Program-made: the position numbers and the translations under genes
Assembly: GCF_037948395.1 (NCBI RefSeq)
Contig: NZ_CP149940.1
Span: forward strand, 3,224,001-3,288,000
Length of the DNA: 64,000 bases
Direction: 5' to 3'
From: Serratia nevei
GTDB lineage: Bacteria; Pseudomonadota; Gammaproteobacteria; Enterobacterales; Enterobacteriaceae
Shown: in pieces, positions 38,549 through 59,663 of the stretch
Layout: every line of letters starts with the position of its first letter
How positions within the stretch are numbered: the first letter of the stretch is position 1
Notes under the pieces: generated by a model
What the model was told of the DNA's origin: nothing
Databases searched by the model: none
Seen by the model: only the letters and a program-made list of their open reading frames with translations

Positions 38549-40626
<2,078 letters not shown>

Positions 40627-40633
40627 TCATGAA

Positions 40634-43600
40634 TCAGAGACTCTCGTTAAGCGCTTGCCCGATCTCCGCCTCACACAGCAGGATGTTGTGGTGATGACAA
40701 GCCAGCGGGATGACCTGCAGCCGCTCGCAGGCGGCGCCAAGCCCATTATCTTCCACCGCCAGCAGCGGCGCCGTGACCGCTTCCGGCAACTGCGGGTTAC
40801 CCTCCATCGCCTTGAACAACGTCACCTTCGTGGTTTGCAGCCTGCGGCTCAGACTCCCCTCAGACAGCCGTCGCTCCGCCTGCCCTGCGGCCATGGCGCG
40901 TGTCGCCGCCTCGCCCTCGATGCCCAACGCCGGCAACAGCTGCTCCAAAGGCAACTCCGCCGTGGCCTGCCGGTAGAAGCTGTCCAGCAGATACAGTTGC
41001 ACGTTACGGTAGCCGCGCGCTTCCAGGCGGGCGGCAATCTCCAGCGCAATGATGCCCCCCAGCGACCAACCGAGAATGCGCACCGGCCCGGCGCCTTGCA
41101 GCAGGCCGGCGGCGATCATGTCGTTCAGATACCGTTCGGCCAGATCGCCGAGCGAGTCGATGGCCGGTTGATGGTAAAGGTTATGGTTGTCGACGCCGTA
41201 ACAGTTGAATCGCCCCTGCAACGGCTGAGCGAAAGCGTGAAACGCTTCCGCCCCCACCAGCGCCGGGTGGATCATCCATACGACGGGCGCGCCCTCTGCC
41301 CAACGGTTAAGCGGCAAGACCAGGCGGCGTTCGTTGGCGGCCAGCAGGTTTTTCAGGGTGCGGCTTTGCAACAGCTGCACCACCGGCACCGGCGCGGCCA
41401 TCAGTTCCCCCATGCCGACACACAGGGAAATGGCCTTGATCGAGGTGCCGCCCAGCAGGAAGAAATCGTCCGTCATGCCGACCTGCCCGCACTGCAGCGC
41501 CGCCTGCCACAGCGCGCACAGCTGCTGTTCCAGCTCGTTCGCGGGAGCGACATAGGCCTGCGCTTCGCTCGCCGCCGGCGCAGGCAACGCCTTGCGATCC
41601 AGTTTGCCGCTGGAGTTATATGGCAGAGCGTCCAGCCGCATCAGCGCCGCAGGCAGCATGTACAACGGCAGTTGCCCGCTCATAAAGGCCAGCAGCGCCG
41701 ATTCATCCAGCGGCGCCTCGCTGACGTAATACAGCGCCAGGCGCTGCCGATGCGCCTCCGACAGCACGACCGCGCAGCAGGATCTGATCGCGCCGAACGC
41801 CAGCGCACATTGCTCGACCTCTCCCAGCTCAACGCGGTAGCCGTTGATTTTCACCTGAAAATCCATACGGCCGAGGAACTCCAGGTTGCCGTCCGGCAAA
41901 TAGCGGCCGGCGTCGCCGGTGCGATAAAGCCGCTCCCCCAGTTCCGGATGGTAGATGAACTTCTCTTCGGTCAGCGACGGATTGCGGTAATAGCCGCGCG
42001 CCACGCCGGCCCCACCGATGTATTGCTCTCCCGGCAAGCAAGGCGGCAGTACGCGCTGATGGCGATCCAGCACGTAAAAGCGCTGATGCGCCATCGCCTG
42101 GCCGTAAGGCACGCTGGGCGCCAGGATCGGCGTTTCCGGGATGTCGTACAGGATCGACCAAATGGAGCTCTCGGTCGCGCCCCCGGCGCTGACGATCCGG
42201 CACCCTGGCCGCCATTGGCGAATACGCGCCGGCAGTTGGCGGGAGATCACCTCGCCCACCAGCACCACATTGCGCAGCTGCGGCCACTGCGCCTGCGACG
42301 CGGCGGACTCCAACTGCTCCACCAGCAGCGTCATCACTGAAGGCGCGGAATTCCAGAAGGTTACGCCCTGGGTCATCAACAGCCGATGCCAGGCCTCAGG
42401 CTGGTAGCGTTCGGTTTCGGACGGCATCACTATGGCGCCCCCCACCGACAGCAGGCCGAAAATATCGAACACCGAAATGTCGAAACTCAACGCGCTGAGC
42501 GCCAACCCGCGATCGTCCGCGCCGAGTTCCAGCTGGTGCAACGTATCGATGATGCTGTTCACCGCGCCGCGATGTTCTATCGCCACCCCTTTCGGCGCGC
42601 CGGTAGAGCCGGAGGTGAAGATCACATAGGCCAGCGCGGAAGGTGCCGGCAAAATAGCCTCGCCCGGCGGAGCCGGCGGCAACTCCATGACGGCCCCCTG
42701 CGGATCGATCGTCAACAGCCTGGCCTCACCGCTGGCCCCCCACTCCCGGCTGCTCAGAATCACCCGGGTCTGCGACTGCGCGACGATATCCAGGCGGCGG
42801 CGTTCCGGCCAGGCGCCGTCCAGCGGCAAATAGGTCTTGCCGGCCATCAGAATCGCCAGCACCGCAATGATTTGCGCCCGCCCTTTGTCCACCATCACTG
42901 CGATGGTCTCGGCGCGCATGTCCGCGTGCTCACGCAGCTGCAACGACAGCGTCAGCGCCCGCCGATACAGCTCACCGTAGCTCAGCTCGCCCCATTCATC
43001 GACGATTGCCACCCGCTGCGGCTCGCGCTCGGCCTGACGGATGAAGTCATGATGGATGGCGCGTTCGAAATCGTAGGCCGGTGGACAGGATTGATGGAAG
43101 GCGCGCTGCCGCGCCATTTCACTCTCCGAGATCAGCGCCAACTGGCTGACGCGCTGCTCCCCGTGATTGACGATCTGCGTGAGGATCGTCAGATAATACT
43201 CCCCCAGCAGCGCCAGCGTAGCCGGTGCAAACAAGGCGGTGGCATAGTTGAAGATCGCCCGCCCGCCCTGCGGTGCCGACTGGATGCTCAGCGTCAAATC
43301 GAATTTGGCCGCCTGGTAGTGCGCCAGCAGATCCTGCGGCGCCAGCCAGGCCGGCGCGGCCCCCGCCTCCTCCAGCGCGAACAGCGCCTGGAACAGCGGA
43401 TGGCGCGACAGATCGCGCGGCACCTGCAGCAGTTCGATCAGCTGATCCAACGGCAAATTCTGATACCGCTGCGCCTGCAGCACGCCGTCAAAGACGCGAT
43501 GCACATAATCGTTCAGCGACGCCGCATCGTCTATTTGCGAGCGCAGCGGCAGCGTGTTGACGAAGAATCCGATCGCTGAGCGGGTCTCTGCCGCCGGTCG

Positions 43601-46600
43601 GTTGGCAACCGGCGTACCGACCAGAATGTCTTGCTGGCCGCTGAAGTAACCGAGCAGCAAATTAAAGGCCGCAAGATACAGCGCAAACGGCGTGACGCCC
43701 TGCTGCCGGGCGAACTGCGCCGCCTGCGCCACCAGCGCCTCCGGCAGCGCGATGACGTGGTTGGCGCCACGATGATCGAAGCGAGCCGGCCGCACGAAAT
43801 CGAGCGGCATTTCCAGCGCCTGCCACCCCGCCAGGGCTTGGCGCCAATAGGCTTTCGCCTCATCCGCCTGAACGGAATCCAGCCAGCGCCGCTGCCAGAC
43901 GGCATAGTCGCCATAGTGCAACGGCAACGCCGCCAGCCCGGCCTCTCGCCCTTGCCGCTGCGCCTGATACAGCACGTCCAGCTCCTGCAGCAGCACCGGC
44001 TGCGACCAGCCGTCAAACGCCAGGTGATGCACCAGAATCAGGCTGTAATTCACCCACCCGCCATCCGGCTGCGCCACCCGGTAAACGGCCGCCCTGATCG
44101 GCAATTCCGCCCCCAGCGCGAACGGCCGGTCGATATCCTGCCGCAGCCTGTCCGGCCAGTGCGCCGCCTCCAACGTCACGCGCTCCAGCGAAAGCGTCAG
44201 TTCACAGGCTCGGGATACGGCGCTTTGGGATGGCATCTGGACAATCAGGCTGTGTAAAACCTGATGCCGGGCGACGACCGCCTGTAAACTGCGCTCGTAA
44301 GCCGCCAGACACACCTCGTCGCCGAGACGGAACAGCATCGGCACATGGTAAAGATTGCCGCCGCCGTTCAGATTCTCGATAAACCACAGCTGCAGCTGTG
44401 AAGAAGAGAGCGGATACTCGCGTTGCCGCAGCGGCGGGATCGACACCGGCGCGGCGCCCTGCTCCTGTTGCTGCAACACGCGACACAGCGAACGGATCGT
44501 CGGGAACCGCCCCAGCTCGCTCAGCGTTATCTCACGCGCCAGCCGCCGGCCGATCTGATAACAGGCCTGAATAGCCAGAAGAGAGTTGCCCCCCAGCGAG
44601 AAGAAGTTGTCCTCCACGCCGATATCCTGCCGCTGCAGCAAATCGCGCCACACCGCCAGACAGGCGTTCTCCCATTCGCCCTGCGCCGCGACGAACTCAC
44701 GCACCGCCCTTTCCGGCTGCGGCAAGGCCTGTCGGGCTATCTTGCCGTTTTCGGTCAGCGGCAGCTGCGCCAGCTGCATCAGCGCCTGCGGCACCATGTA
44801 CGGAGGCAGTTGGCTGCTCAAGTGCTGAGCCAGCGCCTGGGGGGCGATCGTCTCATCGGCAACGTAGTACGCGGCCAGGCAGGGCTGCGGTTGCGTGACG
44901 AGCACGCAGCAACAGGCGGTCACGCCCGGATAGGCGAGCACCGCATGTTCTATCTCCCCCAGCTCGATGCGATAGCCGTTCAGCTTGATCTGCTGATCGA
45001 GGCGCCCCATGAACTCCACGTTGCCATCCTCCAGCCATCGGCCCGCGTCGCCGGTGCGGTACACCCGCTCCTGCAGCTCGTCATGCCAGAAAAAACTCTC
45101 GGCGGTGCGTTGCGGATCGCCGTAATACCCGCGCGCCAGGCCCTCACCCGCCAGATAGATTTCCCCTCGCACCCCCGGCGCGGCGGGCCGTCGCCCGGCG
45201 TCCAGGATATAGCAACGCTGGTGCGGCAACGGTTTGCCGTAAGGAATGCTGACCGACCGAATGTTCTGACCGCGCGGGACCTCGTACAGCATGGTGAAGA
45301 TCGCCGCCTCCGTCGCGCCGCCGGCGCTGCAAAAACGGCCGTGCGGCGCCCAGGCCAGGCAGCGTTCCGGCAGCGAGGTGGCGATCCAGTCGCCCCCCAC
45401 CATCACCGCCCGCAGCGCCGGTGCCGGCCCTGCCGTTAACCCCGCGCCGTTCACATAATCCAGCAACAGCTCCATCAGCGCCGGTGCGCTCAGCCATTGC
45501 GTCACCCGATGTGCCATCATCAATTGATACCAGGCCTGCGGATTGCTCCTGTCCCGCTCGGCCGGCATCACGACCGCACCGCCGGCGCTCAGCGGGCTGA
45601 AAATGTCGAAGATCGCCAGATCGAAGCTCAACGCGCTGAGGGCCAGGCTGCGATCCCGCTCGTTGAGGCCGAAATACCGCCGCACGCCCTCCAGCATGTT
45701 CACCGCGCTGCGATGTTCGATCGCCACGCCCTTCGGTGTGCCGGTCGATCCTGAGGTGAAAATGATATAGGCCAGGCTGTCAGGCCCTGCATCCAGCGCC
45801 GGCAGGCGCTGTTCCGGCAGCGGCAGCTGCGCCGCCAGCCCTGCGGCATTCAGTTCGATCAGGTTGATCTCGGCGCAGGCCCAGGGCGCATCGCTGAGCA
45901 GCGTATTGATGCCGGCCTGCGCCATCACTTTCAGCCGCCGCTGCGGTGGCCATGCCGCCTCCATCGGCAAGAACGCCTTACCGCACATCAGCGCCGCCAG
46001 CAGGGCTACCGGCTGCCGGCGCCCTTTGTCGGCGATGACGGCGATGGCGTCGCCGGTCACCCGTCCTTGCACGCGCAGTTGAGTGGCCAGCGTCAACGCC
46101 GCCTCGTGCAGCTCACCGTAAGTCATCTCCCCCTGCTCGTCGACAACCGCCACCGCCTGCGGACTGCGCCGCGCATGCTGCACGAAATCCTGTTGCAGGC
46201 TGCGTTCAAACGCATAGCCGAAGGGGGATCCGGCCGGTAGCGCCTGGCTTTGCGGTTGCAAGCGGATGTTTTCCAGCGGCCAGTCGTCGTGGTGAGCCAT
46301 CTGCTGCAATACGGCGAGATAGTAACCGGCCAGCCGATCCATCGACGCCTTGCTGAACAACGCCGAAGCGAAGTTGAAGCGCGCACGCATCTGCTCGCCC
46401 TGCGGCGTCAGCGTGAGCGTCAGGTCGAACTTGGCGGTGCGCTCATAAGCGCTCAGATCGACCACCGACAGCCAGTCCGGGCGCGCCTGCGCGCCGCCCT
46501 CGCTCTCCAGCGCGAACATGACCTGGAACAGCGGATGGCGAGAAAAATCGCGCGGCAGCGCCAGATCGTCCACCAGCGCTTCCAGCGACAGCGTCTGATG

Positions 46601-49600
46601 CTGCTGCGCCTGCAGCGTCGTGGCCGCCACCTGCCGCACAAACTCGGCGACGCGATGACGCGGATCGAGTCGCTGGCGTAAAGGCAGCGTATTGACGAAG
46701 AACCCAATCAGATTCTCCAGTTCGGGGCGGTGGCGGTTCGCCAGCGGCGTACCGACCATGACATCGTTCTGGCCGCTGTAGCGGGACAACAGCAGCATGA
46801 ACCCCGCCAGCATCACCGCATGCAGCGTCACCCCCTCTCTGCGCGCCAGCGCATCCAGCGCCTTCACCAGCGCCGCCGGCAACGGCACTTCGCTGTTGTC
46901 ACCGCGCTCGTCGAAGACCGCCGGCCGCAAAAAGTCCAACGGCAGATCGAGTTGCTGGCAACCTGCCAGTGCTTGCCGCCAAAAGGCCAATTCGTCCGCC
47001 CGGCGCTGCACATTTTCCGGCGCTTGTTGCCAGCACGCATAGTCGAGGTATTGCAACGCCGGCTCTGTCGCCTCACGCCACGTCCCGCGATAGCGCGCGT
47101 CCAATTCCTGCAACAGCACCTCAAGCGACCAGCCGTCAAAGACGATGTGATGGAACACCAACAGGCAAACGGTCGTTTCCCGCTCCGCCGCATCGCGGTA
47201 ACGGTAGCGCGTGGCGCGCAGCGGCAGCTCGCGCGTCAAATCCATCGGCTGGCTGCAGGCTTGCGCCAGCGCAGCGTCAAATTCATCGGCACTCAGCGTC
47301 AGCAAAGGTACCGGCAGCACGGTGTCGCTGACCCACTGACTGGCTTCGCCCCGGTCATTCTGGCGGATCAGGCTGCGCAAGATCTGGTGGCGCTCGACGA
47401 TCGCCTGCAGACACGCCGCAAAGCGTTCGTCATCGACATCCGGCGGCAGCCGCAGCAGCACCGGCGACAGATAATGCGTGGCATTCACCGACAGTTGCTG
47501 AACAAACCACAGCCGCGACTGCTGAAGCGACAGCGGCGCCTCCCGCAGCCCGCCGGAGAGGATCGGCAGCTCATCCGGCGGCGCCTGCCGTTGGGCGGCG
47601 ATGTGCTCGCTCAATGCGGCCACCGTCGGATGCTGATTCAACGTCAGTACCGAGATCTTTGCCCCCGGCAGTTTATTCACTTCGTGGCACAGCCTGATGG
47701 CCATAATGGAGTTGCCGCCGAGGCGGAAGAAGTTGTCCTCCACGCCAACATCGCCCCCCAGCAGCCGGTTGAACAGCGCCGACAGACGGGTCTCCAGCGG
47801 CGTGCCCGGCCGGCGAAACGCCGTTTGCGGCTCGACCGGCAGCGGTTCCGGCAATGCCCGGTAATCGACCTTGCGGCTCACCGTCAGCGGCAGCGCCGCC
47901 AGCGCCCGCATCGCCGAAGGCAACATGTAGTGCGGCAGCTGCGCCGCCAGGCGTTGCAAGATGTCGCCGGCCTCCGGCTCCGCGCCAGCTTGCGGCACAT
48001 ACCAGGCCGCCAGCTGGTCCGTAGTGCCGGGACGCAGACTCACCACCGCCTCGGCCACCTCAGGCAGCGCACGCAGCTGCATTTCTATTTCGCCCAATTC
48101 GATGCGATAGCCGTTGATCTTGATTTGCTGATCGTGCCGCCCGAGGTACTCCAGACCGCCGTCGGCCAAGCGCCGCACTCTGTCACCGGTGCGATACAGG
48201 CGCCGGTACGGTTCCCGCAGTTCAAATGGGTTGGCGACGAACGTGGACGCCGTCAGCGCCGGCAGGTTCAGGTATCCCCGCGCCAACCCCACGCCGGCCA
48301 GGCACAGCTCGCCTTCTACGCCCAACGGTAACAAATTATCTTTCTCGTCAATCACATAACAACGCATATTGGCGATAGCGTGGCCGATATTGCGCGCGCC
48401 GTTGCGGCGATAGATATTCAGGCTGGCGCTGACCGAGGCTTCGGTCGGGCCATACATGTTGGCGACCTGCATGCCGCTGGCCAGGTAATGGTCGAGCGCT
48501 TCCTGCGCGGTCGCCTCACCGCCGGTCGCGAGATAGCGCACCGAAGCCGGAAGTTCAGGCAAGGTGCCAAGCAGCGCCGGCGGCAGGAAGCAGGCCTCGA
48601 TGCCCCAGACCGCCATCTGTTCGCACAACTGCGCCGGATCCCGCCGCTGCGCTTCGCTCGCGATGAACAGCCGGTAGCCGTTGTCCAGGGCCACGAACAC
48701 TTCGAAGACGTGCGCGTCAAACGCCAGCGACGCGAACTGCAGGCAGTTGAGCGCATCCGGCTCATTGCACAACAAACGCTGCGTGTGGCCCCGCACCATA
48801 TTGGCCGCGCCCCGGTGTTCGCACAGCGTGCCTTTTGGCCGCCCGGAAGTGCCGGAGGTGTAAATCACGTAGGCCAACTGCCGGGCGTCCACACTCGGCA
48901 AGGCTGCGGCATCCGCGTCGGCGAGCGGTTCATCTGCCGACAGGCAAAGGGTGCCCGGCGCCAATCGCTGCGCCGCAGCCTGCAACGCGTTTTCGGTCAA
49001 GACGATCGGGCTGTTGACCTCTTGCAGGATATAATCCAGCCGCTGCGCCGGCGCGGCGGGATCCAGCGGCACATAGGCACCGCCCGCCTTCATGATGGCC
49101 AGCATCGCCACCACCGCCTCCGCGCTGCGCTGCAGATACAGCGGGATCAGCGTCTCCGGCGGCATGGCCACGCCGCACAGCCGTTGATACTCCGCCCGCA
49201 GCCGCAGCGCCAGACGATCGCTGCGCTGCGCCAGCTGGCGGTAGCTGAGCGATCCTTTGGCATCGGTCACGGCGATGCGCTCCGGGTGACGGCGCGCCTG
49301 TCTGGCCACGCCCTCGAGCAGCGTCGCTTCCGCATCGGCCGTTGCCGGCCCGCTCTCCCAGCCGTCGCGGCAGCGTAAAACCTGCTGCGCCGTCAGCTGT
49401 GGCCAAGCGGCAATCGGCGCGTCCGGTTCGGTTAACGCGCGCTGCAACAGCCAGAGATACTGCTCCGCCATCTCCGTCATTTGGGTCGCGTCGAACAGAT
49501 CGGGGCGGTAGCGCAGGCGAAACTCAAAGGCCTGCTCGGTAGGCTGATACTCCAGCAGCAGTTCCGAACCGGCCAAATCGACGTTGAAGCGATGATTGAC

Positions 49601-50650
49601 GCCGATGCAACAACCGTCGAGCGCCAGCGGCGCATCTTTCAGGTAAGCCTGGGTAAAGTTGACGTTCAGCTGACGCACCGGGCTGAGGCTCAGCATGTCA
49701 TAAACCGGCAACTGGCTGTGCCGCAGCTTGCCTGCCGCCTTGAGCGCTTTGCTGTAGGCCAGCGTCGCGCGGTACAGCTGATTGAACGTGGCCCCCGGGG
49801 CGAGGGTCAAGGGGAACACGGCGGTATTGACCTGTGCGCCGAAGAACAGCGCCTCGCCGCCCTCCGGCGCGACGGGATAACCGATATGCACCGTTTCCTG
49901 CGCGGATTGCCGGGCGATCAGCAACGCCCACAGCGTTTTGAATATCAGGAAAGGATTGGCATACCTGACGCCGGATTTCAGCGCCTGCCACTCGGCGAAC
50001 GGTAACCTAAAGCGCACTTCACCGGCGCCAGGCGCTTCGGGGGCTGCGCCGGGAAGATAAGGCAACGCCACGCGCGGAGCGCATTCAGCCAGCAGGCTGC
50101 CCCAGAATGACGCAGAGCCGAACTCGTGCTTCAACGTCGCGACATCCGCCTCATAACGCTCGTACAATGTGCAGATGTCCGTTTCATCCGCCTGCGGCGG
50201 CGCCACCGCCGCGCCGCGATTGTAATAGGCGGAAACGGCGCTGTAGAACTCCTGCCCCGACAGGCCGTCGATCAGGATGTGATGAACGACAATGATCAGG
50301 TTATAGCGCTGAGGGGCCAGCTCAATCAGGTAGAAGCGGCACAGCGGCCCTTCCCGGAGATCGAACGGCGTGTTGATTAACTTACCGATATCACAATCGG
50401 CATCGAGCGTTTCCAACGCAATTTTTTTCGCCGTCTTTACCCAGCGCAGTGGCGAGGAACTGTCATCCAAAACGTGGTGAAACAGAATATAGTCCCGGCA
50501 AACCCCGTCGATCGCCGCGCGCAATCGTCCGACGTCCAGCTCTCCCTCAATCGTCTGATCCAGCACCAGGTTGTACTCGCAGGAGTGTGGATTGAGCACG
50601 TACTCATTCCAAAACGTGTGGGTATAAGGTGAAGCGATGAGCACGTTCAT
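40634..50650 (-). CDS. Three-module nonribosomal peptide synthetase with thioesterase
   Basis: A 3338-aa nonribosomal peptide synthetase, C-A-PCP-C-A-PCP-C-A-PCP-TE. Condensation signatures HHxxxDG occur as HHILIDG (about residue 123), HHIVFDG (about 1166) and HHLAFDG (about 2207). Adenylation cores YTSGTSGRPKG (about 603), FTSGSTGTPKG (about 1635) and a third at about 2682 are present. Carrier sites are LGGNS (S about 980), LGGNS (about 2023) and LGGTS (about 3070). The thioesterase elbow is GWSLGG (S about 3196). By hand alignment to GrsA the codes are roughly DAFFAGMV, DLFLMGAI and DIFNVVAI, low confidence and not matching any substrate I know. There is no epimerase, heterocyclisation or methylation domain. 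The N-terminal condensation domain could acylate the first residue. The ATG at 50650 has AAGGGAA upstream. Product unknown. Confidence 0.95.
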   Translation of the reverse strand: MNVLIASPYTHTFWNEYVLNPHSCEYNLVLDQTIEGELDVGRLRAAIDGVCRDYILFHHVLDDSSSPLRWVKTAKKIALETLDADCDIGKLINTPFDLREGPLCRFYLIELAPQRYNLIIVVHHILIDGLSGQEFYSAVSAYYNRGAAVAPPQADETDICTLYERYEADVATLKHEFGSASFWGSLLAECAPRVALPYLPGAAPEAPGAGEVRFRLPFAEWQALKSGVRYANPFLIFKTLWALLIARQSAQETVHIGYPVAPEGGEALFFGAQVNTAVFPLTLAPGATFNQLYRATLAYSKALKAAGKLRHSQLPVYDMLSLSPVRQLNVNFTQAYLKDAPLALDGCCIGVNHRFNVDLAGSELLLEYQPTEQAFEFRLRYRPDLFDATQMTEMAEQYLWLLQRALTEPDAPIAAWPQLTAQQVLRCRDGWESGPATADAEATLLEGVARQARRHPERIAVTDAKGSLSYRQLAQRSDRLALRLRAEYQRLCGVAMPPETLIPLYLQRSAEAVVAMLAIMKAGGAYVPLDPAAPAQRLDYILQEVNSPIVLTENALQAAAQRLAPGTLCLSADEPLADADAAALPSVDARQLAYVIYTSGTSGRPKGTLCEHRGAANMVRGHTQRLLCNEPDALNCLQFASLAFDAHVFEVFVALDNGYRLFIASEAQRRDPAQLCEQMAVWGIEACFLPPALLGTLPELPASVRYLATGGEATAQEALDHYLASGMQVANMYGPTEASVSASLNIYRRNGARNIGHAIANMRCYVIDEKDNLLPLGVEGELCLAGVGLARGYLNLPALTASTFVANPFELREPYRRLYRTGDRVRRLADGGLEYLGRHDQQIKINGYRIELGEIEMQLRALPEVAEAVVSLRPGTTDQLAAWYVPQAGAEPEAGDILQRLAAQLPHYMLPSAMRALAALPLTVSRKVDYRALPEPLPVEPQTAFRRPGTPLETRLSALFNRLLGGDVGVEDNFFRLGGNSIMAIRLCHEVNKLPGAKISVLTLNQHPTVAALSEHIAAQRQAPPDELPILSGGLREAPLSLQQSRLWFVQQLSVNATHYLSPVLLRLPPDVDDERFAACLQAIVERHQILRSLIRQNDRGEASQWVSDTVLPVPLLTLSADEFDAALAQACSQPMDLTRELPLRATRYRYRDAAERETTVCLLVFHHIVFDGWSLEVLLQELDARYRGTWREATEPALQYLDYACWQQAPENVQRRADELAFWRQALAGCQQLDLPLDFLRPAVFDERGDNSEVPLPAALVKALDALARREGVTLHAVMLAGFMLLLSRYSGQNDVMVGTPLANRHRPELENLIGFFVNTLPLRQRLDPRHRVAEFVRQVAATTLQAQQHQTLSLEALVDDLALPRDFSRHPLFQVMFALESEGGAQARPDWLSVVDLSAYERTAKFDLTLTLTPQGEQMRARFNFASALFSKASMDRLAGYYLAVLQQMAHHDDWPLENIRLQPQSQALPAGSPFGYAFERSLQQDFVQHARRSPQAVAVVDEQGEMTYGELHEAALTLATQLRVQGRVTGDAIAVIADKGRRQPVALLAALMCGKAFLPMEAAWPPQRRLKVMAQAGINTLLSDAPWACAEINLIELNAAGLAAQLPLPEQRLPALDAGPDSLAYIIFTSGSTGTPKGVAIEHRSAVNMLEGVRRYFGLNERDRSLALSALSFDLAIFDIFSPLSAGGAVVMPAERDRSNPQAWYQLMMAHRVTQWLSAPALMELLLDYVNGAGLTAGPAPALRAVMVGGDWIATSLPERCLAWAPHGRFCSAGGATEAAIFTMLYEVPRGQNIRSVSIPYGKPLPHQRCYILDAGRRPAAPGVRGEIYLAGEGLARGYYGDPQRTAESFFWHDELQERVYRTGDAGRWLEDGNVEFMGRLDQQIKLNGYRIELGEIEHAVLAYPGVTACCCVLVTQPQPCLAAYYVADETIAPQALAQHLSSQLPPYMVPQALMQLAQLPLTENGKIARQALPQPERAVREFVAAQGEWENACLAVWRDLLQRQDIGVEDNFFSLGGNSLLAIQACYQIGRRLAREITLSELGRFPTIRSLCRVLQQQEQGAAPVSIPPLRQREYPLSSSQLQLWFIENLNGGGNLYHVPMLFRLGDEVCLAAYERSLQAVVARHQVLHSLIVQMPSQSAVSRACELTLSLERVTLEAAHWPDRLRQDIDRPFALGAELPIRAAVYRVAQPDGGWVNYSLILVHHLAFDGWSQPVLLQELDVLYQAQRQGREAGLAALPLHYGDYAVWQRRWLDSVQADEAKAYWRQALAGWQALEMPLDFVRPARFDHRGANHVIALPEALVAQAAQFARQQGVTPFALYLAAFNLLLGYFSGQQDILVGTPVANRPAAETRSAIGFFVNTLPLRSQIDDAASLNDYVHRVFDGVLQAQRYQNLPLDQLIELLQVPRDLSRHPLFQALFALEEAGAAPAWLAPQDLLAHYQAAKFDLTLSIQSAPQGGRAIFNYATALFAPATLALLGEYYLTILTQIVNHGEQRVSQLALISESEMARQRAFHQSCPPAYDFERAIHHDFIRQAEREPQRVAIVDEWGELSYGELYRRALTLSLQLREHADMRAETIAVMVDKGRAQIIAVLAILMAGKTYLPLDGAWPERRRLDIVAQSQTRVILSSREWGASGEARLLTIDPQGAVMELPPAPPGEAILPAPSALAYVIFTSGSTGAPKGVAIEHRGAVNSIIDTLHQLELGADDRGLALSALSFDISVFDIFGLLSVGGAIVMPSETERYQPEAWHRLLMTQGVTFWNSAPSVMTLLVEQLESAASQAQWPQLRNVVLVGEVISRQLPARIRQWRPGCRIVSAGGATESSIWSILYDIPETPILAPSVPYGQAMAHQRFYVLDRHQRVLPPCLPGEQYIGGAGVARGYYRNPSLTEEKFIYHPELGERLYRTGDAGRYLPDGNLEFLGRMDFQVKINGYRVELGEVEQCALAFGAIRSCCAVVLSEAHRQRLALYYVSEAPLDESALLAFMSGQLPLYMLPAALMRLDALPYNSSGKLDRKALPAPAASEAQAYVAPANELEQQLCALWQAALQCGQVGMTDDFFLLGGTSIKAISLCVGMGELMAAPVPVVQLLQSRTLKNLLAANERRLVLPLNRWAEGAPVVWMIHPALVGAEAFHAFAQPLQGRFNCYGVDNHNLYHQPAIDSLGDLAERYLNDMIAAGLLQGAGPVRILGWSLGGIIALEIAARLEARGYRNVQLYLLDSFYRQATAELPLEQLLPALGIEGEAATRAMAAGQAERRLSEGSLSRRLQTTKVTLFKAMEGNPQLPEAVTAPLLAVEDNGLGAACERLQVIPLACHHHNILLCEAEIGQALNESL

Positions 50651-51177
50651 AAAGCAATTCCCTTTTAATATATTCCAAAAATATATCAACCACTACTTAT
50701 GCATTAAATAAATAGCGTGGCCGTTATGCGATTGAGCTGTTAGCTGAAAAACTAAAAACATAAGTGCGAATATTATTTTATTTTTATAAAAAATAAAGCC
50801 ACAAAAATACAAATAAATAAACATCATAAAAAACAATTAATTAGGATTGATTTTGATTTTCCATCAATGGATTAACCACATTGCATTCATTAATAAAATA
50901 AATGAAACAAACAAATTAAAAAAACAAATAGGATTATATTTAAGATAAGTGAGGGTAATTTAAAAACGCCCGGCAAATCACTATTGAATAGAGAATTTTC
51001 TTAATTAAAAACACACCGCTTTCTGCTGCGCTATTCCAAAGCGCACGATGTCGGAATATCCTATACTCTTTGCAGGATGCAGTTTCCTTCCCATTGAATG
51101 CCAGTACAGGGAGTCAAAAATGGCTATTTTCGCCCCTTTGCGGGCAACTCTTTCAGCATTATTGGCAGAATTATCTG
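50651..51177. promoter_or_regulatory. NRPS-pqqU divergent intergenic region
   Basis: A 527-bp strongly AT-rich region (especially 50690-51010) between the divergent NRPS and pqqU starts. No reading frame is convincing. An inverted repeat TGCGCT/AGCGCA lies at 51027-51045. I see no clear Fur box here. The AT-richness beside a GC-rich 10-kb gene would suit H-NS silencing. Confidence 0.45.
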
Positions 51178-53322
51178 ATGAATAAAAAACGTCCCGCCTT
51201 GACCCCGGCAACCCTGTTATTGCTGCAGCCGATCTGTATCGGCTCGGCCCTGGCGGCGGAGCAAAAAGACAGCGACACCCTGGTGGTGATGGCGCAACCC
51301 ACCGGATTGACCGAGCTGGGGTCGCCGGTCTCCGTCAGCGTGATCGACGGCGAAACCCTGCGCAACGCCGCGCCGCAGATTAACCTGTCGGAAAACCTCG
51401 GCAGCGTGCCGGGCCTGCAGATCCAAAATCGGCAAAACTATGCGCAGGATCTGCAGATGTCGATACGCGGGTTCGGCAGCCGTTCGATGTTCGGCGTGCG
51501 CGGGGTGCGCATGTACGTCGACGGCATTCCCGCCACCATGCCCGACGGCCAGGGGCAAACCTCCAATATCGACATCAATTCCGTCGAACGCATCGAGGTG
51601 CTGCGCGGCCCTTATTCCGCGCTGTACGGCAACGCCTCGGGCGGGGTTATCAATGTTGATACGATAACCGGCACCCAGCCGCCGACGCTGGAAGCCGGCG
51701 GCTATTTCGGCAGCGACAACACCTGGCGCTACGGGGTGAAAGCGACCGGCGCCACCGGCGACGGTACCCAGGCCGGCGACGTCAACTACGCCATCTCCGG
51801 CACCCGCTTTACCACCCAGGGCTACCGCGATCACAGCGCCGCGCGGAAAAACCTCGGCAACGGCAAGCTCGGCGTGCGGCTGGACGACGTCAGCACCCTG
51901 ACGCTGATGTTCAACAGCGTCTCGATTGACGCCGGCGATCCGGGCGGCCTGACCGAGGCGGAATGGAAGGCCAACCCGCGCCAGGCGCCGCGCGCGGATC
52001 AATACAACACCCGCAAATCGCTCGACCAGACCCAGGCCGGCCTGCGCTATCAACGCCAGATGAGCGAGCGCGATGAACTGACCCTGACCGCCTACCACGG
52101 CGAGCGCCACACCACGCAATACCAATCAATCCCGATGGGGCCGCAGCTCAACCCCACCCACGCCGGCGGGGTGATCGTGCTGGAAAGAAAATATCAGGGC
52201 ATTGACACTCGCTGGAAGCATGAGGATACTCTCGCATCGTTACCGGTAACACTGATCGGCGGTCTGGATTATGAAACCATGACCGAACGCCGCCAGGGGT
52301 TCGAAAACTTTATTCTGCGAGACGGCACAGTGGACTACGGCGAGAAAGGCGACCAGCGGCGCAACGAGAAGAACCGCATCTGGAACCTGGATCCTTACCT
52401 GCAAACCTCCTGGCAACTGACGCCGCACTGGACGCTGGACGCCGGCCTGCGCTACAGCACGGTCAGCTTCGACTCGACCGACTACTACATCACGCCGCGC
52501 AACGGCGACGACAGCGGCAGCAAACGCTACCACCAGTGGCTGCCGATGGGCTCGCTCAACTACAAGATCAATCCGGCGTGGAACGTTTATCTCTCCGCCG
52601 GCCGCGGCTTTGAAACCCCCACCATCAACGAGCTCTCCTACCGTCCCGACGGCCAGTCAGGCCTCAACATCGGCCTACAGCCTTCCACCAGCGATACCGT
52701 CGAACTGGGCAGCAAACTGCGCCTCGGCAACGGCCTGGTGAGCGCGGCCCTGTTCCAGACCGATACCGATAACGAGCTGGTGGTAGCGGAAAGCAGCGGC
52801 GGACGCACCAGCTATGCCAACGCCGGCAAAACCCGGCGGCGCGGCCTGGAGCTGGCGCTGGATCAAGAGTTTGCGCTGGACTGGCGCCTGCATATGGCCT
52901 GGACGCTGCTGGACGCCACCTACCGCAGCGATATGTGCGGCAAAGCCGTTTGTACCCCGGCCCAGACCATTCCCGCCGGCAATCGCCTGCCGGGCATCGC
53001 GCGCAACATGGGCTACGCTTCGCTGGCCTTTGCGCCGCCGGAAGGCTGGCACGCCGGCGCGGAGCTGCGCTACATGAGCGACATTCAGGCCAACGACGCC
53101 AACAGCGCGCAGGCCCCCTCTTACACCGTGGCCGGCGTAAACGCCGGCTATCGCTTTACCTGGAACCGCTGGGCGCTGGACGTGTTCAGCCGGGTAGATA
53201 ACGTGTTCGATCGCCGTTACGTCGGTTCGGTGATCGTCAACGAAGGCAACGGCCGCTATTTCGAGCCGGCGCCGGGTCGCAACTGGGGTGGCGGCGCCAC
53301 CTTGTCTTACCGCTTTGAATAA
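51178..53322 (+). CDS. pqqU: PqqU/YncD TonB-dependent receptor (PQQ uptake)
   Basis: A 714-aa TonB-dependent outer membrane receptor matching E. coli YncD (PqqU), which takes up pyrroloquinoline quinone. A signal peptide (about 1-26), TonB box-like segment (DTLVVMAQ), plug domain (LSENLGSVPGLQIQNRQNYA, MSIRGFGSRSMFGVRG, VEVLRGP-type IEVLRGPYSALYGN) and a 22-strand barrel ending in YRFE are visible. The stretches GFETPTINELSYR and TDTDNELVV are family-specific. The ATG at 51178 gives the family N-terminus; an upstream frame lacks a signal. It precedes gcd by 147 bp. Confidence 0.9.
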   Translation: MNKKRPALTPATLLLLQPICIGSALAAEQKDSDTLVVMAQPTGLTELGSPVSVSVIDGETLRNAAPQINLSENLGSVPGLQIQNRQNYAQDLQMSIRGFGSRSMFGVRGVRMYVDGIPATMPDGQGQTSNIDINSVERIEVLRGPYSALYGNASGGVINVDTITGTQPPTLEAGGYFGSDNTWRYGVKATGATGDGTQAGDVNYAISGTRFTTQGYRDHSAARKNLGNGKLGVRLDDVSTLTLMFNSVSIDAGDPGGLTEAEWKANPRQAPRADQYNTRKSLDQTQAGLRYQRQMSERDELTLTAYHGERHTTQYQSIPMGPQLNPTHAGGVIVLERKYQGIDTRWKHEDTLASLPVTLIGGLDYETMTERRQGFENFILRDGTVDYGEKGDQRRNEKNRIWNLDPYLQTSWQLTPHWTLDAGLRYSTVSFDSTDYYITPRNGDDSGSKRYHQWLPMGSLNYKINPAWNVYLSAGRGFETPTINELSYRPDGQSGLNIGLQPSTSDTVELGSKLRLGNGLVSAALFQTDTDNELVVAESSGGRTSYANAGKTRRRGLELALDQEFALDWRLHMAWTLLDATYRSDMCGKAVCTPAQTIPAGNRLPGIARNMGYASLAFAPPEGWHAGAELRYMSDIQANDANSAQAPSYTVAGVNAGYRFTWNRWALDVFSRVDNVFDRRYVGSVIVNEGNGRYFEPAPGRNWGGGATLSYRFE

Positions 53323-53469
53323 GGCAAAGCACCTTAAGGTTAAAAGACGGGATGGGTTTTACGTCACCCTAGCGGCTTCCCGCTGAAATATTAGGGAGAA
53401 ACCGCGTGTTTTTTCCGATTTGGCTTAATCTCTAAATCGGGGACTTTCATTTTTGGTAAGGGTATTGCT

Positions 53470-55842
53470 ATGCAAAATAAAGCGTCACTATCGCCGCTTA
53501 TCGTCATAACGGCGCTGTTTGCCGCCCTGAGCGGGCTTTATCTGCTCGGCGGCGGCATTTGGCTGGCCAAGTTGGGCGGTTCGCTGTATTACATCATCGC
53601 CGGGCTGGTGCTGCTGGCGACCTCTTGGCTGCTGTTCCGCCGCCGCGCCACCGCGCTGCTGCTGTACGCCGTGTTCCTGTTGGGCACCACCGTTTGGGCC
53701 CTGTGGGAAGTCGGCCCGGACTTCTGGGCGTTGACGCCGCGTCTGGACGTCACCTTCTTCTTCGGCCTGTGGCTGGTGCTGCCGTTTATCTACCGTAAGC
53801 TGGTGGCCAACGGCAAGTTCGCCTACGGTGCGCTGAGCGCCGCGCTGGTCATCACCGTCATTGCGCTGGCCTATGCCGTGTTCAACGATCCGCAAGAGAT
53901 CAACGGCACCCTCGACGCCGCGCAGGTGCAGCCTAAAGACACCACCGGCGCCGACTGGCCGGCCTATGGCCGCACCCAAGAAGGCACCCGTTACTCGCCG
54001 CTGAGCCAGATCAACGACAAAAACGTTGGCCAACTGCAAGAGGTTTGGCGTTTCCAGACCGGCGATCTGAAGACCGCCAACGATCCGGGTGAGATCACCA
54101 ACGAAGTCACGCCGATCAAGATCCGCGATACCCTTTACATGTGTACGCCGCACCAGAAGCTGTTTGCGCTGGATGCCGCCACCGGTAAAGAAAAATGGAA
54201 GTTTGATCCGCAGCTGAAGTACAACCCGACCTTCCAGCACATCACCTGCCGTGGCGTGTCTTACCACGAAACCGCTGCCGCCGCAGACGCTGCCGGCAAC
54301 GCCGCACCGGCGATGTGCGCACGCCGTATCATTCTGCCGGTCAACGACGGCCGCCTGTTCGCGCTGGACGCCGAAACCGGCAAACCGTGCCCGGACTTCG
54401 CCAACAACGGCGAACTGAACCTGCAGAGCAACATGCCGTATGCGACGCCGGGCCACTACGAGCCGACTTCGCCGCCGGTGATCACCGATAAAGTGATCGT
54501 CGTCGCCGGCGCCGTGACCGACAACTACTCCACCCGCGAGCCTTCCGGCGTGATCCGCGGCTTCGACGTCAACAGCGGCAAGCTGCTGTGGGCCTTCGAT
54601 CCGGGCGCGAAAGATCCGAACGCCATCCCGGCGGACGAGCATCACTTCGTGCCGAACTCGCCGAACTCCTGGGCACCGGCCGCTTATGACGCCAAGCTGG
54701 ATATCGTCTATCTGCCGATGGGCGTCGCCACGCCGGACATCTGGGGCGGCAACCGCACCCCGGAAATGGAGCGCTACGCCAGCGGCCTGTTGGCGCTGAA
54801 CGCCTCCACCGGCAAGCTGGCCTGGTTCTATCAGACGGTCCACCATGACCTGTGGGACATGGACGTGCCGGCGCAGCCGACCCTGGCGGACATTACCGAC
54901 AAGAGCGGTAAAAAAGTGCCGGTCATCTATGTGCCGACCAAAACCGGCAACATCTTCGTGCTGAACCGCACCAACGGCGAACTGGTGGTGCCGGCGCCGG
55001 AGAAACCGGTACCGCAGGGGCCGGCCAAAGGCGATCGCCTGTCACCGACCCAGCCGTTCTCCGAGCTGACCTTCCGCCCTGAGAAGAAACTGACCGGTGC
55101 AGACATGTGGGGCGCGACCATCTATGACCAGCTGGTCTGCCGCGTGATGTTCCACAGCCTGCGTTATGAAGGCACCTTCACCCCGCCTTCCGAGCAGGGC
55201 ACGCTGGTGTTCCCGGGTAACCTCGGCATGTTCGAGTGGGGCGGCCTGGCCGTCGATACCGATCGCGAAATCGCCATCGCCAACCCAATCGCGCTGCCGT
55301 TCGTCTCCAAACTGATCCCACGCGGCCCAGGCAACCCGATTGAGCCGCCGGAAGGCGACAAGGGCGGCAGCGGTACCGAAACCGGTATCCAGCCGCAGTA
55401 TGGCGTGCCGTTCGGCGTCACGCTGAATCCGTTCCTGTCACCGTTCGGCCTGCCGTGCAAACAGCCGGCCTGGGGTTACATTTCCGCCGTTGATCTGAAA
55501 ACCAACGACATCGTGTGGAAAAAACGCATCGGCACCGTGCGCGACAGCTCCCCGCTGCCACTGCCGTTCAAAATGGGCATGCCGATGCTGGGCGGCCCGG
55601 TGACCACCGCCGGTAACGTGTTCTTCATCGGCGCCACCGCAGACAACTACCTGCGCGCCTTCAGCGTGACCAACGGTGAGAAACTGTGGGAAGCGCGCTT
55701 GCCGGCCGGCGGCCAGGCGACGCCGATGACCTATGAGGTCAACGGTAAGCAGTACGTCCTGATCTACGCCGGCGGCCACGGTTCCTTCGGCACCAAGCTG
55801 GGCGACTATGTGGTCGCTTACGCGCTGCCCGATCAGAAGTAA
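53470..55842 (+). CDS. gcd: PQQ-dependent glucose dehydrogenase
   Basis: A 790-aa membrane-bound quinoprotein glucose dehydrogenase that oxidises glucose to gluconolactone in the periplasm and feeds ubiquinone. Five N-terminal hydrophobic helices (about 1-140) precede the PQQ beta-propeller, with the family blocks ALTPRLDVTFFFGLW, CRGVSYHE, NDPGEITNEVTPI, YLPMGVATPDIWGGNRTP, the catalytic-region VHHDLWDMD (H458-D466) and GGPVTTAGNVFF. Sequence closely follows E. coli Gcd (796 aa). No pqq biosynthesis genes are in the window; PQQ could come through the adjacent PqqU. Confidence 0.96.
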   Translation: MQNKASLSPLIVITALFAALSGLYLLGGGIWLAKLGGSLYYIIAGLVLLATSWLLFRRRATALLLYAVFLLGTTVWALWEVGPDFWALTPRLDVTFFFGLWLVLPFIYRKLVANGKFAYGALSAALVITVIALAYAVFNDPQEINGTLDAAQVQPKDTTGADWPAYGRTQEGTRYSPLSQINDKNVGQLQEVWRFQTGDLKTANDPGEITNEVTPIKIRDTLYMCTPHQKLFALDAATGKEKWKFDPQLKYNPTFQHITCRGVSYHETAAAADAAGNAAPAMCARRIILPVNDGRLFALDAETGKPCPDFANNGELNLQSNMPYATPGHYEPTSPPVITDKVIVVAGAVTDNYSTREPSGVIRGFDVNSGKLLWAFDPGAKDPNAIPADEHHFVPNSPNSWAPAAYDAKLDIVYLPMGVATPDIWGGNRTPEMERYASGLLALNASTGKLAWFYQTVHHDLWDMDVPAQPTLADITDKSGKKVPVIYVPTKTGNIFVLNRTNGELVVPAPEKPVPQGPAKGDRLSPTQPFSELTFRPEKKLTGADMWGATIYDQLVCRVMFHSLRYEGTFTPPSEQGTLVFPGNLGMFEWGGLAVDTDREIAIANPIALPFVSKLIPRGPGNPIEPPEGDKGGSGTETGIQPQYGVPFGVTLNPFLSPFGLPCKQPAWGYISAVDLKTNDIVWKKRIGTVRDSSPLPLPFKMGMPMLGGPVTTAGNVFFIGATADNYLRAFSVTNGEKLWEARLPAGGQATPMTYEVNGKQYVLIYAGGHGSFGTKLGDYVVAYALPDQK

Positions 55843-56477: not shown

Positions 56478-57083
56478 TCACCCTCGCGGCCGCTCTACGG
56501 TTTTCAACCCGCCCATTCGCAGCCAGTGGTAGAGATCCGCGTTGCGTTTGAAACCCAGTTTTCTCATCGCCGCCTGTTTGTGGTTGCTGACGGTTTTCAC
56601 GCTCAGGTGCAGGTTGCGCGCAATGGTGGTCTGCGGTAATTCACAGGCCAGATAGCGCATCACGTCCTGCTCACGGCGGGTAATGCGCTGCCGTTCGCAC
56701 CAATGGCAGCGGTGCGCTGCCCCACTTTGCGCCCGTGCCGCCAGCGCCAGGTCCAGCTGTCTGACTACGCTGTCCGGCGAGTCATTGCGGAAGATCACCC
56801 CCGTTTCGCTGATGCAGCGCGGCTTATCGCGCCAGCGAATATCGCCCGGCTCACGCAGCGCAAAGTTGATCGGTCGGCAGCCGCTCACTGAACGCAGGCA
56901 GAAACGCGCCTGCCAGTCTCGCTCCACGGACTGGAACACCATATCCGCCCGATGCGCCTGTGCGGCGTCCAGCAGCTGAACCCGCATGCCACGGCGCGAG
57001 AAATACGCCAGCAGCAGCCGCTGCAATCCTTCAATAAAGAAACGGTCATTATCGATAAACGCCAGAGTGATGGTGCTTTCCAT
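56478..57083 (-). CDS. LuxR-type HTH regulator of the fimbrial locus
   Basis: A 201-aa regulator with a C-terminal LuxR/FixJ HTH (ITRREQDVMRYLACELPQTT through SVKTVSNHKQAAMRKLGF) and an N-terminal response-regulator-like segment (LAFIDNDRFFIEGLQRLL) whose phosphoacceptor site is not obvious. The ATG at 57083 is favoured over GTG 57089 because AAAGGGAG is 7 bases from it. It lies on the same strand as, and 121 bp downstream of, the fimbrial operon, where MR/P-type operons place their regulator (mrpJ). Regulation of the fimbriae or of motility is inferred. Confidence 0.75.
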   Translation of the reverse strand: MESTITLAFIDNDRFFIEGLQRLLLAYFSRRGMRVQLLDAAQAHRADMVFQSVERDWQARFCLRSVSGCRPINFALREPGDIRWRDKPRCISETGVIFRNDSPDSVVRQLDLALAARAQSGAAHRCHWCERQRITRREQDVMRYLACELPQTTIARNLHLSVKTVSNHKQAAMRKLGFKRNADLYHWLRMGGLKTVERPRG

Positions 57084-57204
57084 CGGCACGCTCCCTTTAA
57101 AATAATCCTTTCCGGCCGCCGCCGAGCGTGAGTCATCCCCCCGACGGCGGGCGACTCAACGGCATAACGCGGCATCGCGCCGGCGCGCGGCGGGGGTAAT
57201 GCGG

Positions 57205-58047
57205 CTACGGCAGCGCCAGAATGGCGACCGATTGCCCCGAGTAATCGCCGGCCTTGACCGTTCCGGTCACGCCGAGCGTGGAAGTGATCGGCACCGTGAC
57301 GCCGCGTGTATCAGAAGTGAACTGGTAACCCAGGTTGCCCAGAGCGCCATTGATGCGCAGCGTGCTGTAAACGCCGGAGTTCCCCAGATCCAGGCGGCCA
57401 TTGCTGCCGACACGGATATACATGACGATGTTCATCTTCTGCGAGCAAACCACGCGCAGGCTGCCACGCGCCGTGTTGCCCACCAGTTCGGTATCCGGCA
57501 ACACCCCGTGGTTCAGATCGAGCTGTTGCTCATCGATGCCGCACACCCCGACCGGCGGTGGCGCGATGCCGCAAACGCTGCTCGGCATCAATCTCGCACT
57601 GGCCCCCTGAACAACGGAAGAGGAACTGGTGGTATAAAACAGCCCGACACACTCCTGAGTGATAGCGTCCCCCACATGAGAAGTCGCGCCGACAATCGGC
57701 AACGGATAGATGTTTTGGTAGAAGCGGCTGAGTTCGCCCATCGTCCTCAATTGGGTGATCTGTGGGTAGCGCCCTGAGCCGACGATAGAGGTCGACGGTG
57801 TCACCGCCGTACTGCCGCCGGTATTGGCACTGGTGTGGCGGTGGTTGATCCCCACCGCGCACATACTTTGCTGGTAACAGGGATTGGGCGACGAATCGTC
57901 CGTATCCCAGCTTTCGAGCACAAATTCATAGGACGCGTTGCTGGGGGAGCCGGTGCTCTTGGTCACGTACGAGTATATTTGCGCCGAGCACAGCCCCGGC
58001 AGCAGGCCAAACAGTAAGTACATCCATCTGAAGTGAACACGCTGCAT
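57205..58047 (-). CDS. MrpH-like fimbrial tip adhesin
   Basis: A 280-aa secreted two-domain adhesin. A signal peptide (about 1-22) ends at LCSA, an N-terminal adhesin domain (about 24-155) follows, then a pilin domain (about 160-280). The pattern NHRHTSAN with H69 and H71, plus H124 in SHVGD, corresponds to the three zinc ligands of Proteus mirabilis MrpH (H72, H74, H117). Cysteines in PCYQQSMC and CGIAPPPVGVCG suggest disulfides. The C-terminal strand (GQSVAILALP) suits chaperone donor-strand contacts. Last structural gene of the operon. Confidence 0.78.
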   Translation of the reverse strand: MQRVHFRWMYLLFGLLPGLCSAQIYSYVTKSTGSPSNASYEFVLESWDTDDSSPNPCYQQSMCAVGINHRHTSANTGGSTAVTPSTSIVGSGRYPQITQLRTMGELSRFYQNIYPLPIVGATSHVGDAITQECVGLFYTTSSSSVVQGASARLMPSSVCGIAPPPVGVCGIDEQQLDLNHGVLPDTELVGNTARGSLRVVCSQKMNIVMYIRVGSNGRLDLGNSGVYSTLRINGALGNLGYQFTSDTRGVTVPITSTLGVTGTVKAGDYSGQSVAILALP

Positions 58048-58086
58048 CGCGTCATATCCTTATTCTGTGGTGCCGGAGCCCGGCGC

Positions 58087-58641
58087 TCATTGGTAATCCA
58101 GACTGAAAGTCGCAATGGCGCTGAAAGCGCCGCGACCGATAGCTCGCTTCGCGATCGCTTCCGGTTCGCCGCGCACATAAGCCTGTACGCCGATAACCGT
58201 GCTGCCGTTCTGCAACGGGTACTTGCCGCCGGCGCTGTTGAGCGGTAACGGCTGCCCCTGCGGCGTCTCCATGCCGATGGCGATCCCGCGCGCCTGGCTG
58301 CTCGCCGCCAGTGCCAGAAGCCCCGGCAGCTGCGCATTCTCCGTGCCTTTGAAGGTGATCGAGACCGTCTTGCCCAGGCTGAGATCGCACTCCGTCAGCC
58401 GCAGCTCGAACGGTTGCCCCTGCGTGCGCTGGTTCAGGTACAGGTATTTGTCGACCAGCGTGCCGAAATCCAGCTCGATGTCTTCGTCGCCCGGCTGGAT
58501 GACGCAAGGCTCCGCCACCAGCGCTCCGTGCATGCGCAGGTTGTCCACCGCGTGCGCCGCGCCGTTCACGCCCAGCGTCAGCAACAGCAGACCGATGGCT
58601 CCGTGGCCGCCTGGCCGGCGGCGGGCTTGTATTGTCTTCAC
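58087..58641 (-). CDS. Fimbrial minor subunit
   Basis: A 184-aa chaperone-usher fimbrial subunit. Signal peptide of about 30 residues ending GVNGAAHA, pilin domain with the disulfide cysteines in EPCVIQPGDEDIELDFG and LTECDLSL, and the terminal strand ending FSLDYQ. The GTG at 58641 is preferred over the ATG at 58659 because AAGGAGG stands 6 bases before it; the ATG (overlapping the previous stop as ATGA) would place the ribosome-binding site inside the gene. It has no one-to-one match among MR/P E, F, G; it may be an extra adaptor. Confidence 0.75.
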   Translation of the reverse strand: MKTIQARRRPGGHGAIGLLLLTLGVNGAAHAVDNLRMHGALVAEPCVIQPGDEDIELDFGTLVDKYLYLNQRTQGQPFELRLTECDLSLGKTVSITFKGTENAQLPGLLALAASSQARGIAIGMETPQGQPLPLNSAGGKYPLQNGSTVIGVQAYVRGEPEAIAKRAIGRGAFSAIATFSLDYQ

Positions 58642-58655
58642 GCGCGCCTCCTTGT

Positions 58656-59147
58656 TCATTGGTAGTCGGCCCGCAGCGTCGCCGCGGCCTCGAATGCGCC
58701 TTCCGTCAAAGCTTCGCCCGGTTTGCCGACCGGCACCGCTTCCAGCACCGGCGGTTTGGCGGGATCGACGGGCAGTGCGCTGCCCACTTTGAACGGTTGG
58801 GCGTTCTGGTAAATGCGGATCCCCAGAGCGCGCCGATTGGTTTGCACCGCCGCTTCGTCGAACGTCGCGGCGGTGCCGGTCAGGCTCAGCAACATGTCCC
58901 ATTTGCCGATCCCCGGTTCGCAGCGAATGCGGTAGCCGATGGTTTGTCGGTAGTTCACGCCATCAACCTTGTTGATGCCGACGCGATCGCCGAAGTCCAC
59001 GTCGATGATCCCGTCGTCGTTAAGGGTGCAGGGCGGCGGCGCGATCAGCGTGCCGCGAAACTGCATGTCGACCGTTTTTTCCGCCCAGGCGAAAGGGCAC
59101 GCCATCGCGGCGCACAGCAGCACGCTCGCCGTAAAACGTTGTTTCAT
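58656..59147 (-). CDS. Fimbrial minor subunit (MrpG/F-like)
   Basis: A 163-aa fimbrial protein: signal peptide MKQRFTASVLLCAAMACPFA-WA, pilin cysteine in APPPCTLNDDGIIDVDFGD with its partner in RIRCEPGIG, and terminal strand ATLRADYQ. The PPPCTLNDD-x-x-I-x-V-DFGD block is shared by the next two subunits, showing they are paralogs. It is 15 bp downstream of the preceding subunit gene and overlaps the stop-start of the following one. Predicted secreted via Sec and assembled by the operon chaperone and usher. Confidence 0.8.
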   Translation of the reverse strand: MKQRFTASVLLCAAMACPFAWAEKTVDMQFRGTLIAPPPCTLNDDGIIDVDFGDRVGINKVDGVNYRQTIGYRIRCEPGIGKWDMLLSLTGTAATFDEAAVQTNRRALGIRIYQNAQPFKVGSALPVDPAKPPVLEAVPVGKPGEALTEGAFEAAATLRADYQ

Positions 59148-59162
59148 GCTCTCGCTCCCGCG

Positions 59163-59654: not shown

Positions 59655-59663
59655 CGCCTCGCC

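Follow-up and report, generated by a model that had tools for sequence, protein, structure and literature searches.

What does a lone nonribosomal peptide synthetase (NRPS) make, and do the genes around it take part? A 10-kb gene in the stretch of Serratia nevei DNA analysed here (64,000 nucleotides, hereafter the window) raises this question, since a preliminary description had proposed three C-A-PCP modules and a thioesterase (TE) and no tailoring genes.

Architecture and catalytic residues of the synthetase

The gene lies on the minus strand, with an intact frame from the ATG at 50650 to the stop at 40634. An AAGGG ends nine bases ahead of this ATG. The open reading frame can also be opened at a TTG (40634-50689); the aligned Serratia copies start at the ATG. 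Pfam found three Condensation, three AMP-binding and three PP-binding domains and one Thioesterase domain, all above cut-off, as well as AMP-binding_C above cut-off in two of the three adenylation (A) domains. Together with a domain search, which supplied the residue limits in Table 1, these matches bear out the proposed modular order. Chance cannot plausibly account for an open frame of 3338 codons in which ten domains are recognised. The domain set includes no epimerisation (E) domain, and no PKS domain was found by Pfam.

Nineteen catalytic or substrate-anchoring positions were compared in 36 aligned rows (the window protein, P0002-P0034, L016 and L017), many of them near-duplicates, so that counts of constancy overstate independence. 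Fifteen positions are constant in all 36 rows, and the His, His and Asp of the HHxxxDG motif of the first condensation (C) domain, C1, are constant in 36/36. As P0015 and P0025 are short and lack the TE end, 34 rows cover the TE Asp and His: Asp3223 is constant in all of them and His3320 in 33, while the His on each side of His3320 varies (25/34 and 27/34). The features of a type I NRPS are all present, namely the HHxxxDG of the C domains, the carrier Ser and the A-domain residues Asp235 and Lys517 in the usual numbering. The protein ends in a TE with Ser, Asp and His.

Table 1. Features of the NRPS locus, with window coordinates and protein residues (L042, a five-module NRPS of the same genome, is described in the text)
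Feature	Coordinates	Strand	Residues	Basis or remark
NRPS gene, C-A-T-C-A-T-C-A-T-TE, 3338 aa	40634..50650	-		ORF, Pfam and domain search
C1, N-terminal C-domain subfamily, HHILIDG	49331..50650	-	1-440	domain search, C tree
A1, code DAFFAGMVS, probably aliphatic substrate	47831..49315	-	446-940	domain search, A tree
T1, Ser981	47600..47785	-		Pfam, alignment
C2, HHIVFDG, groups with L042 C2/C4	46211..47545	-	1036-1480	domain search, C tree
A2, code DLFLMGAIF, Cys-clade A domain	44696..46165	-	1496-1985	domain search, A tree
T2, Ser2023	44441..44653 (approximate limits)	-		Pfam, alignment
C3, HHLAFDG, groups with C2	43091..44425	-	2076-2520	domain search, C tree
A3, code DIFNVVAIW, Cys-clade A domain	41546..43030	-	2541-3035	domain search, A tree
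T3, Ser3070	41306..41518 (approximate limits)	-		Pfam, alignment
TE, Ser3196, Asp3223, His3320	40637..41278 (approximate limits)	-		Pfam, alignment
A+T-rich upstream stretch, presumed promoter region	50651..51055 (right limit approximate)	.		27% G+C over 50651-51050; no recognisable empty-site counterpart
Dyad TTATGAGCCAGGCTCATGAA, left NRPS border, also in empty sites	40614..40633	.

Distribution of the family and composition of the locus

A protein search scored 2270 candidates, 1776 of them at E <= 1e-30, and the best 120 were listed. Among these listed matches, 33 proteins (P0002-P0034; 3207-3409 aa) are co-linear with the query, at 45-99% identity over 96-100% of its length; the next in rank drops to 34% identity, in a protein of 5812 aa. 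Their named sources include S. marcescens, S. ureilytica, S. plymuthica and S. entomophila and, outside Serratia, Erwinia tasmaniensis, Pseudomonas chlororaphis, Pantoea sp. 1.19 and Providencia, which makes five named genera, about half of the 33 proteins having no usable source name. Eleven loci were available on named contigs; five hold family members (S. ureilytica, S. marcescens 106R, S. nevei, S. plymuthica and Erwinia aphidicola) and six are remote from the family (38% or less). The 90% cluster of the window protein has 1074 member sequences, displayed without their source organisms. The earlier label of an orphan therefore holds in the sense of a stand-alone gene and fails in the sense of an oddity of one strain.

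A full-length copy at 74% or more occurs in eight of 30 genus genomes, own genome included, and the other 22 do not have it; a match at threshold was found in 20 of the 30, mostly to other NRPSs. With C1 as the query, samples of 394 order and 369 class genomes yielded two stand-alone C proteins and no full-length copy besides that of the own genome, which speaks for patchiness and not for absence. Among 392 plasmid records, all below 60% identity, the sole family member is a Providencia protein (45%); the other 19 plasmid matches among those listed reach 32.7-34.4%. The distribution of the family is patchy. Compared with the window copy, seven Serratia copies have dN/dS (Nei-Gojobori) of 0.123-0.230 and the Erwinia gene 0.177, with dS near saturation; dS was not computable for Providencia. 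Ratios of this order indicate that the gene is under purifying selection.

The gene on the same strand 46 bases downstream encodes an aldo/keto reductase (AKR; PF00248, no NCBIfam model above cut-off) and the divergent neighbour encodes PqqU (NF041535, 1283 bits, cut-off 1200), in agreement with the preliminary description, which had also seen no MbtH, phosphopantetheinyl transferase (PPTase), transporter or siderophore receptor adjoining the NRPS. Twenty ORFs that we picked from among those between 29331 and 61061 were scanned: they include no PPTase, MbtH, transporter or iron gene, and PqqU is their sole TonB-type receptor. The own genome has two MbtH and three ACPS-family matches, all outside the window. 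Beyond the NRPS, pqqU adjoins a gene for a PQQ-dependent membrane dehydrogenase (51070-55842), and fimbrial genes with an MrpH-type adhesin lie at 56478-61061, with a LuxR-type regulator between them and the dehydrogenase.

Six NRPS-negative genomes (G022, G011, G009, G001, G010 and G024) were compared with the window at base level. In these empty sites the matched AKR and pqqU stretches are 131-181 bases apart. On the left flank, identity to the window is 84-98%, and each of the six matches stops at 40635, within the NRPS stop codon. The right border, near 51055, was placed from G024, the one significant match (51056-51126, 71%, E 8e-5), and from pqqU leaders read by eye; the hits in G011, G009 and G001 span 20 bases at E 0.43, while G022 and G010 gave none. 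The pqqU frames of G024 and G010 have one stop each. Relative to the empty sites, the extra DNA consists of the NRPS gene and about 0.4 kb of upstream DNA at 27% G+C. Read by eye, the empty site has about 60 bases that the window lacks, which looks more like a replacement than a clean insertion. Between 40581-40660 and 51001-51080 no shared word of at least 8 bases was found, nor was a target-site duplication seen there. Rfam gave no match over 39000-52000, and promoter and terminator scans of both NRPS borders did not rise above shuffles. A tRNA-Asn call by ARAGORN (50706-50784) was considered as an integration site and set aside by eye: it falls in A+T-rich non-coding DNA inside the stretch missing from the empty sites, and is probably false.

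Within the genus the locus is shared: in seven of the eight NRPS-positive Serratia sites read, the gene stops at this dyad or at a variant form; in L017 and L037 the NRPS ends about 35 bases past the dyad, and in L038 (G013) the AKR-side flank is different DNA. All eight Serratia upstream regions compared have GAATATTATTTYATTT in common (by eye), the first eleven bases of which are absent from the 420 bases upstream of the Erwinia and Providencia NRPS genes. In G002 and S. plymuthica, short pqqU-like pieces lie between the NRPS and the dehydrogenase, and a pqqU at 69-71% is found elsewhere in the genome; these pieces suggest that pqqU once stood at their NRPS locus. The dS of the NRPS is 0.94 against G002 and 0.78 against S. 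plymuthica, that of the dehydrogenase 0.64 and 0.42, and that of the G002 AKR, 0.67, is nearer than the dehydrogenase to the NRPS value; in S. ureilytica and G013 the NRPS dS (0.32 and 0.34) exceeds the 0.15-0.20 of their flanks. We read this as a probable old acquisition with several losses and some recombination; the gene could also have arrived repeatedly at one spot in the genus.

Outside Serratia, the Erwinia aphidicola NRPS has no window neighbour in common within 10 kb. The copy on a Providencia rettgeri plasmid (L032:14977-25717) overlaps a PPTase gene by eight bases, with fimbrial genes ahead of it and an IS6 transposase and plasmid genes after it; over 190 aa this PPTase shows 29% identity to one of the own genome's three candidates. 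On the loci seen, given the six empty sites, the lack of a neighbour shared with Erwinia aphidicola and the Providencia overlap limited to the PPTase gene, the NRPS behaves as a solo gene, that is one NRPS plus any suitable PPTase. The AKR gene and pqqU predate the NRPS at this site and do not serve it as tailoring genes. The proposal of a three-module NRPS without tailoring genes has thus been strengthened by the empty sites, the locus shared within the genus and the distant plasmid copy.

Three other readings of the locus have to be weighed against these data. That the AKR is a tailoring enzyme of the pathway might be supposed from its strand and proximity and from its being intact beside most marcescens-type copies, and is nevertheless very unlikely: an AKR at 81% identity or higher is found in 18 of the 30 genomes of the genus, of which 12 belong to the 22 without the NRPS; it is missing beside the NRPS of G013, is reduced to a 55-residue match in the S. 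plymuthica flank and carries one in-frame TGA in G002; and it was not found in the Erwinia or Providencia NRPS flanks. Still harder to credit is a siderophore synthetase, which the nearby TonB-dependent receptor would accommodate, because an NCBIfam equivalog identifies that receptor as PqqU, whose gene also occurs where the NRPS is missing, because none of the codes shows the Ser, Lys/Orn or Thr patterns found in the siderophore NRPS L036 of the own genome, and because the scanned ORFs yielded no iron gene. A decaying gene kept by chance would account for its absence from so many genus genomes, and is hardly compatible with eight genus copies free of stop codons, with the low dN/dS (0.12-0.23) and with the conserved catalytic residues.

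Substrate codes and condensation domains

The residue loaded by A1 is probably aliphatic and branched, judging from known Val/Ile codes. In a tree of 42 of 57 A domains (five proteins omitted), A2 and A3 fall in the Cys clade with support 100/100, and in the family alignment their codes are nearly fixed over the five named genera. No substrate match was found for these two codes. A comparison with heterocyclising Cys modules (DLYNxSLIW-type code plus Cy domain) was negative, as A2 and A3 have other codes and no C domain is of the Cy type. None of the A domains has a Ser-type code. Searched as text strings in the literature, the codes matched no paper, and no code matching them was found in the accessible part of PMC12283262. 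A2 and A3 would show how the pocket of a Cys-type A domain takes on a new substrate.

C1 is 35% identical over 418 aa (E 6e-85) to the first C domain of L034, against 25% (E 5e-9) to its own C2. L034:1985-7798, in the own genome about 30 kb beyond the NRPS and outside the window, encodes a 1937-aa NRPS with the order C-A(Val code)-T-C-C; its second C falls in the probable-E clade, and Pfam finds no TE in it. In the available portion of PMC9911388, the gcd NRPS has one module with D-Val and is assigned to fatty-acyl-Val glucosamine derivatives, the printed link between gene and product resting on genome mining; structures of Serratia glucosamine derivatives are given in PMC8007976 (in part). 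By architecture and Val code, and not by a published sequence, L034 fits the described gcd glucosamine-lipid synthetase. L034 and the window NRPS have the C1 subfamily, a probably aliphatic first residue and the genome in common; they differ in that L034 has one module, a probable E and no TE, whereas the window NRPS has three modules and a TE, lacks E and is not the single Val module of gcd. The two proteins are 34% identical, over query residues 4-1326 only. When the L034 C1 was searched against the 30 genomes of the genus, hits at E <= 1e-60 fell only in this NRPS (8 genomes) and in the L034 type (5 genomes).

A tree of 66 C-domain rows that we chose, from which a length filter dropped the second C of P0046, places C1 in a clade of 18 rows, with support 100/100, that contains first domains and stand-alone proteins only: the family C1 domains, those of five related three-module NRPSs, the L034 C1 and two stand-alone C proteins. 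The tie of this clade to the C1 of L042 and L036, two other starter-type C domains, is weak (73/85), with long branches meeting there. C2 and C3 group with C2 and C4 of L042, apart from the C domains that follow probable E domains, these E assignments being drawn from the tree and domain order. L042 C3 and C5 fall among the latter; as sphA has no E domains according to the accessible text of PMC9911388, the C tree is not a clean guide to stereochemistry.

L042:858-18725, in the own genome outside the window, encodes a 5955-aa five-module NRPS with Thr-Ser-Ser-X-X codes, and so by these codes would be of the stephensiolide type rather than serrawettin W2; its C1 falls outside the C1 clade of the window NRPS. 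SphA (stephensiolide) and SwrA (serrawettin W2) are, like the window NRPS, products of a single large Serratia gene ending in a TE, and have the acyl start that is predicted for it; they differ from it in having five modules and other codes. Serrawettin W1 (structure in PMC7767323, in part) calls for one module activating Ser, and the window NRPS has three modules. Althiomycin synthase has Cys-type A domains in common with it; according to the part of PMC3445576 at hand, Alb4/Alb5 is an NRPS-PKS hybrid that comprises six modules, performs heterocyclisation and is accompanied by tailoring genes, whereas the window NRPS is one gene with plain C domains and no PKS domain. Module number, A-codes and the lack of PKS domains thus uphold the earlier exclusion of serrawettins W1 and W2 and althiomycin. 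Also related are the three-module NRPSs P0046, P0048, P0053, P0055 (Chania) and P0064 (Xenorhabdus), which share the C1 clade, a related last C domain and, in all five, a TE; P0046, P0055 and P0064, alone in the A tree, also have a Cys-clade A3. These five proteins differ in an extra C-like domain after module 1, a probable E in the four of the five that entered the C tree, a length of 3735-3819 aa and other codes, at 37-43% identity over 66-69%.

A predicted lipotripeptide and its alternatives

We propose, with a probability of roughly 0.6, that this single gene suffices as the locus of a short lipopeptide, namely an N-acyl tripeptide of all-L configuration that leaves the enzyme through the TE. 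A resident Sfp-type PPTase would charge the three carrier domains, C1 would attach a fatty acyl chain, taken from CoA or ACP, to the residue loaded by A1, C2 and C3 would add the A2 and A3 residues in turn, and the TE would free the product through hydrolysis or ring closure. The acyl chain is expected mainly from the kinship of C1 with the C1 of gcd-like L034 and from the literature link to fatty-acyl-Val glucosamine lipids, and the all-L configuration from the lack of an E domain. The enzyme is of a known kind, and the literature searched describes no product of it.

Two other outcomes of the same domains are each unlikely. The TE might act iteratively, joining two tripeptidyl chains to give a cyclic hexapeptide or a dilactone; gramicidin S and the symmetric serrawettin W1 arise in this way, and other short NRPSs with a TE do likewise. 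The conserved Ser-Asp-His permits this, yet no sequence feature demands it, and N-acylation of the first residue would prevent head-to-tail joining unless a hydroxyl group of a side chain took part. We consider it about as improbable that C1 is a relic or structural domain and that a free or cyclised tripeptide is released. C1 does lie far from the usual C domains, its best match among solved structures standing at E 3e-11, and is tied weakly to known starter types; against this reading stand the invariant catalytic triplet of its motif and a dN/dS of 0.13-0.20 in the seven Serratia copies, purifying like that of the other domains.

More tentatively, and at somewhat less than even odds, the lipotripeptide may be the same or nearly the same undescribed compound in Serratia, Erwinia, Pantoea, Providencia and Pseudomonas chlororaphis, which would define a self-sufficient one-enzyme class whose Cys-lineage A pockets were recoded for two successive residues and then kept. 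Conservation across five named genera and purifying selection suggest that the product is probably useful to its makers. The gene is a compact target for product discovery, as one gene and one PPTase should suffice for the compound.

No product of the window NRPS was found in the published literature, in a search that covered article texts. Four other NRPS clusters are reported in strain SM6 (PMC6498229). The texts consulted further mention two unnamed NRPSs found only in SM39 (PMC4231636), single-gene NRPS loci of Db10 tabulated as siderophores or serrawettin W2 with no module counts (PMC4117218) and four uncharacterised NRPS clusters in S. plymuthica WS3236 (PMC6366047), which may include an NRPS of the window type.

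Further loci were noted outside the window. The own genome has a PKS/NRPS locus, L043, whose A-codes we read as Ala, Cys, Asp and Cys. In two genomes of one other genus, L040:6484-8157 and L041:4578-6251 encode 557-aa stand-alone proteins, the frame open in both, which consist of a C1-type condensation domain followed by a stub resembling the end of an A domain.
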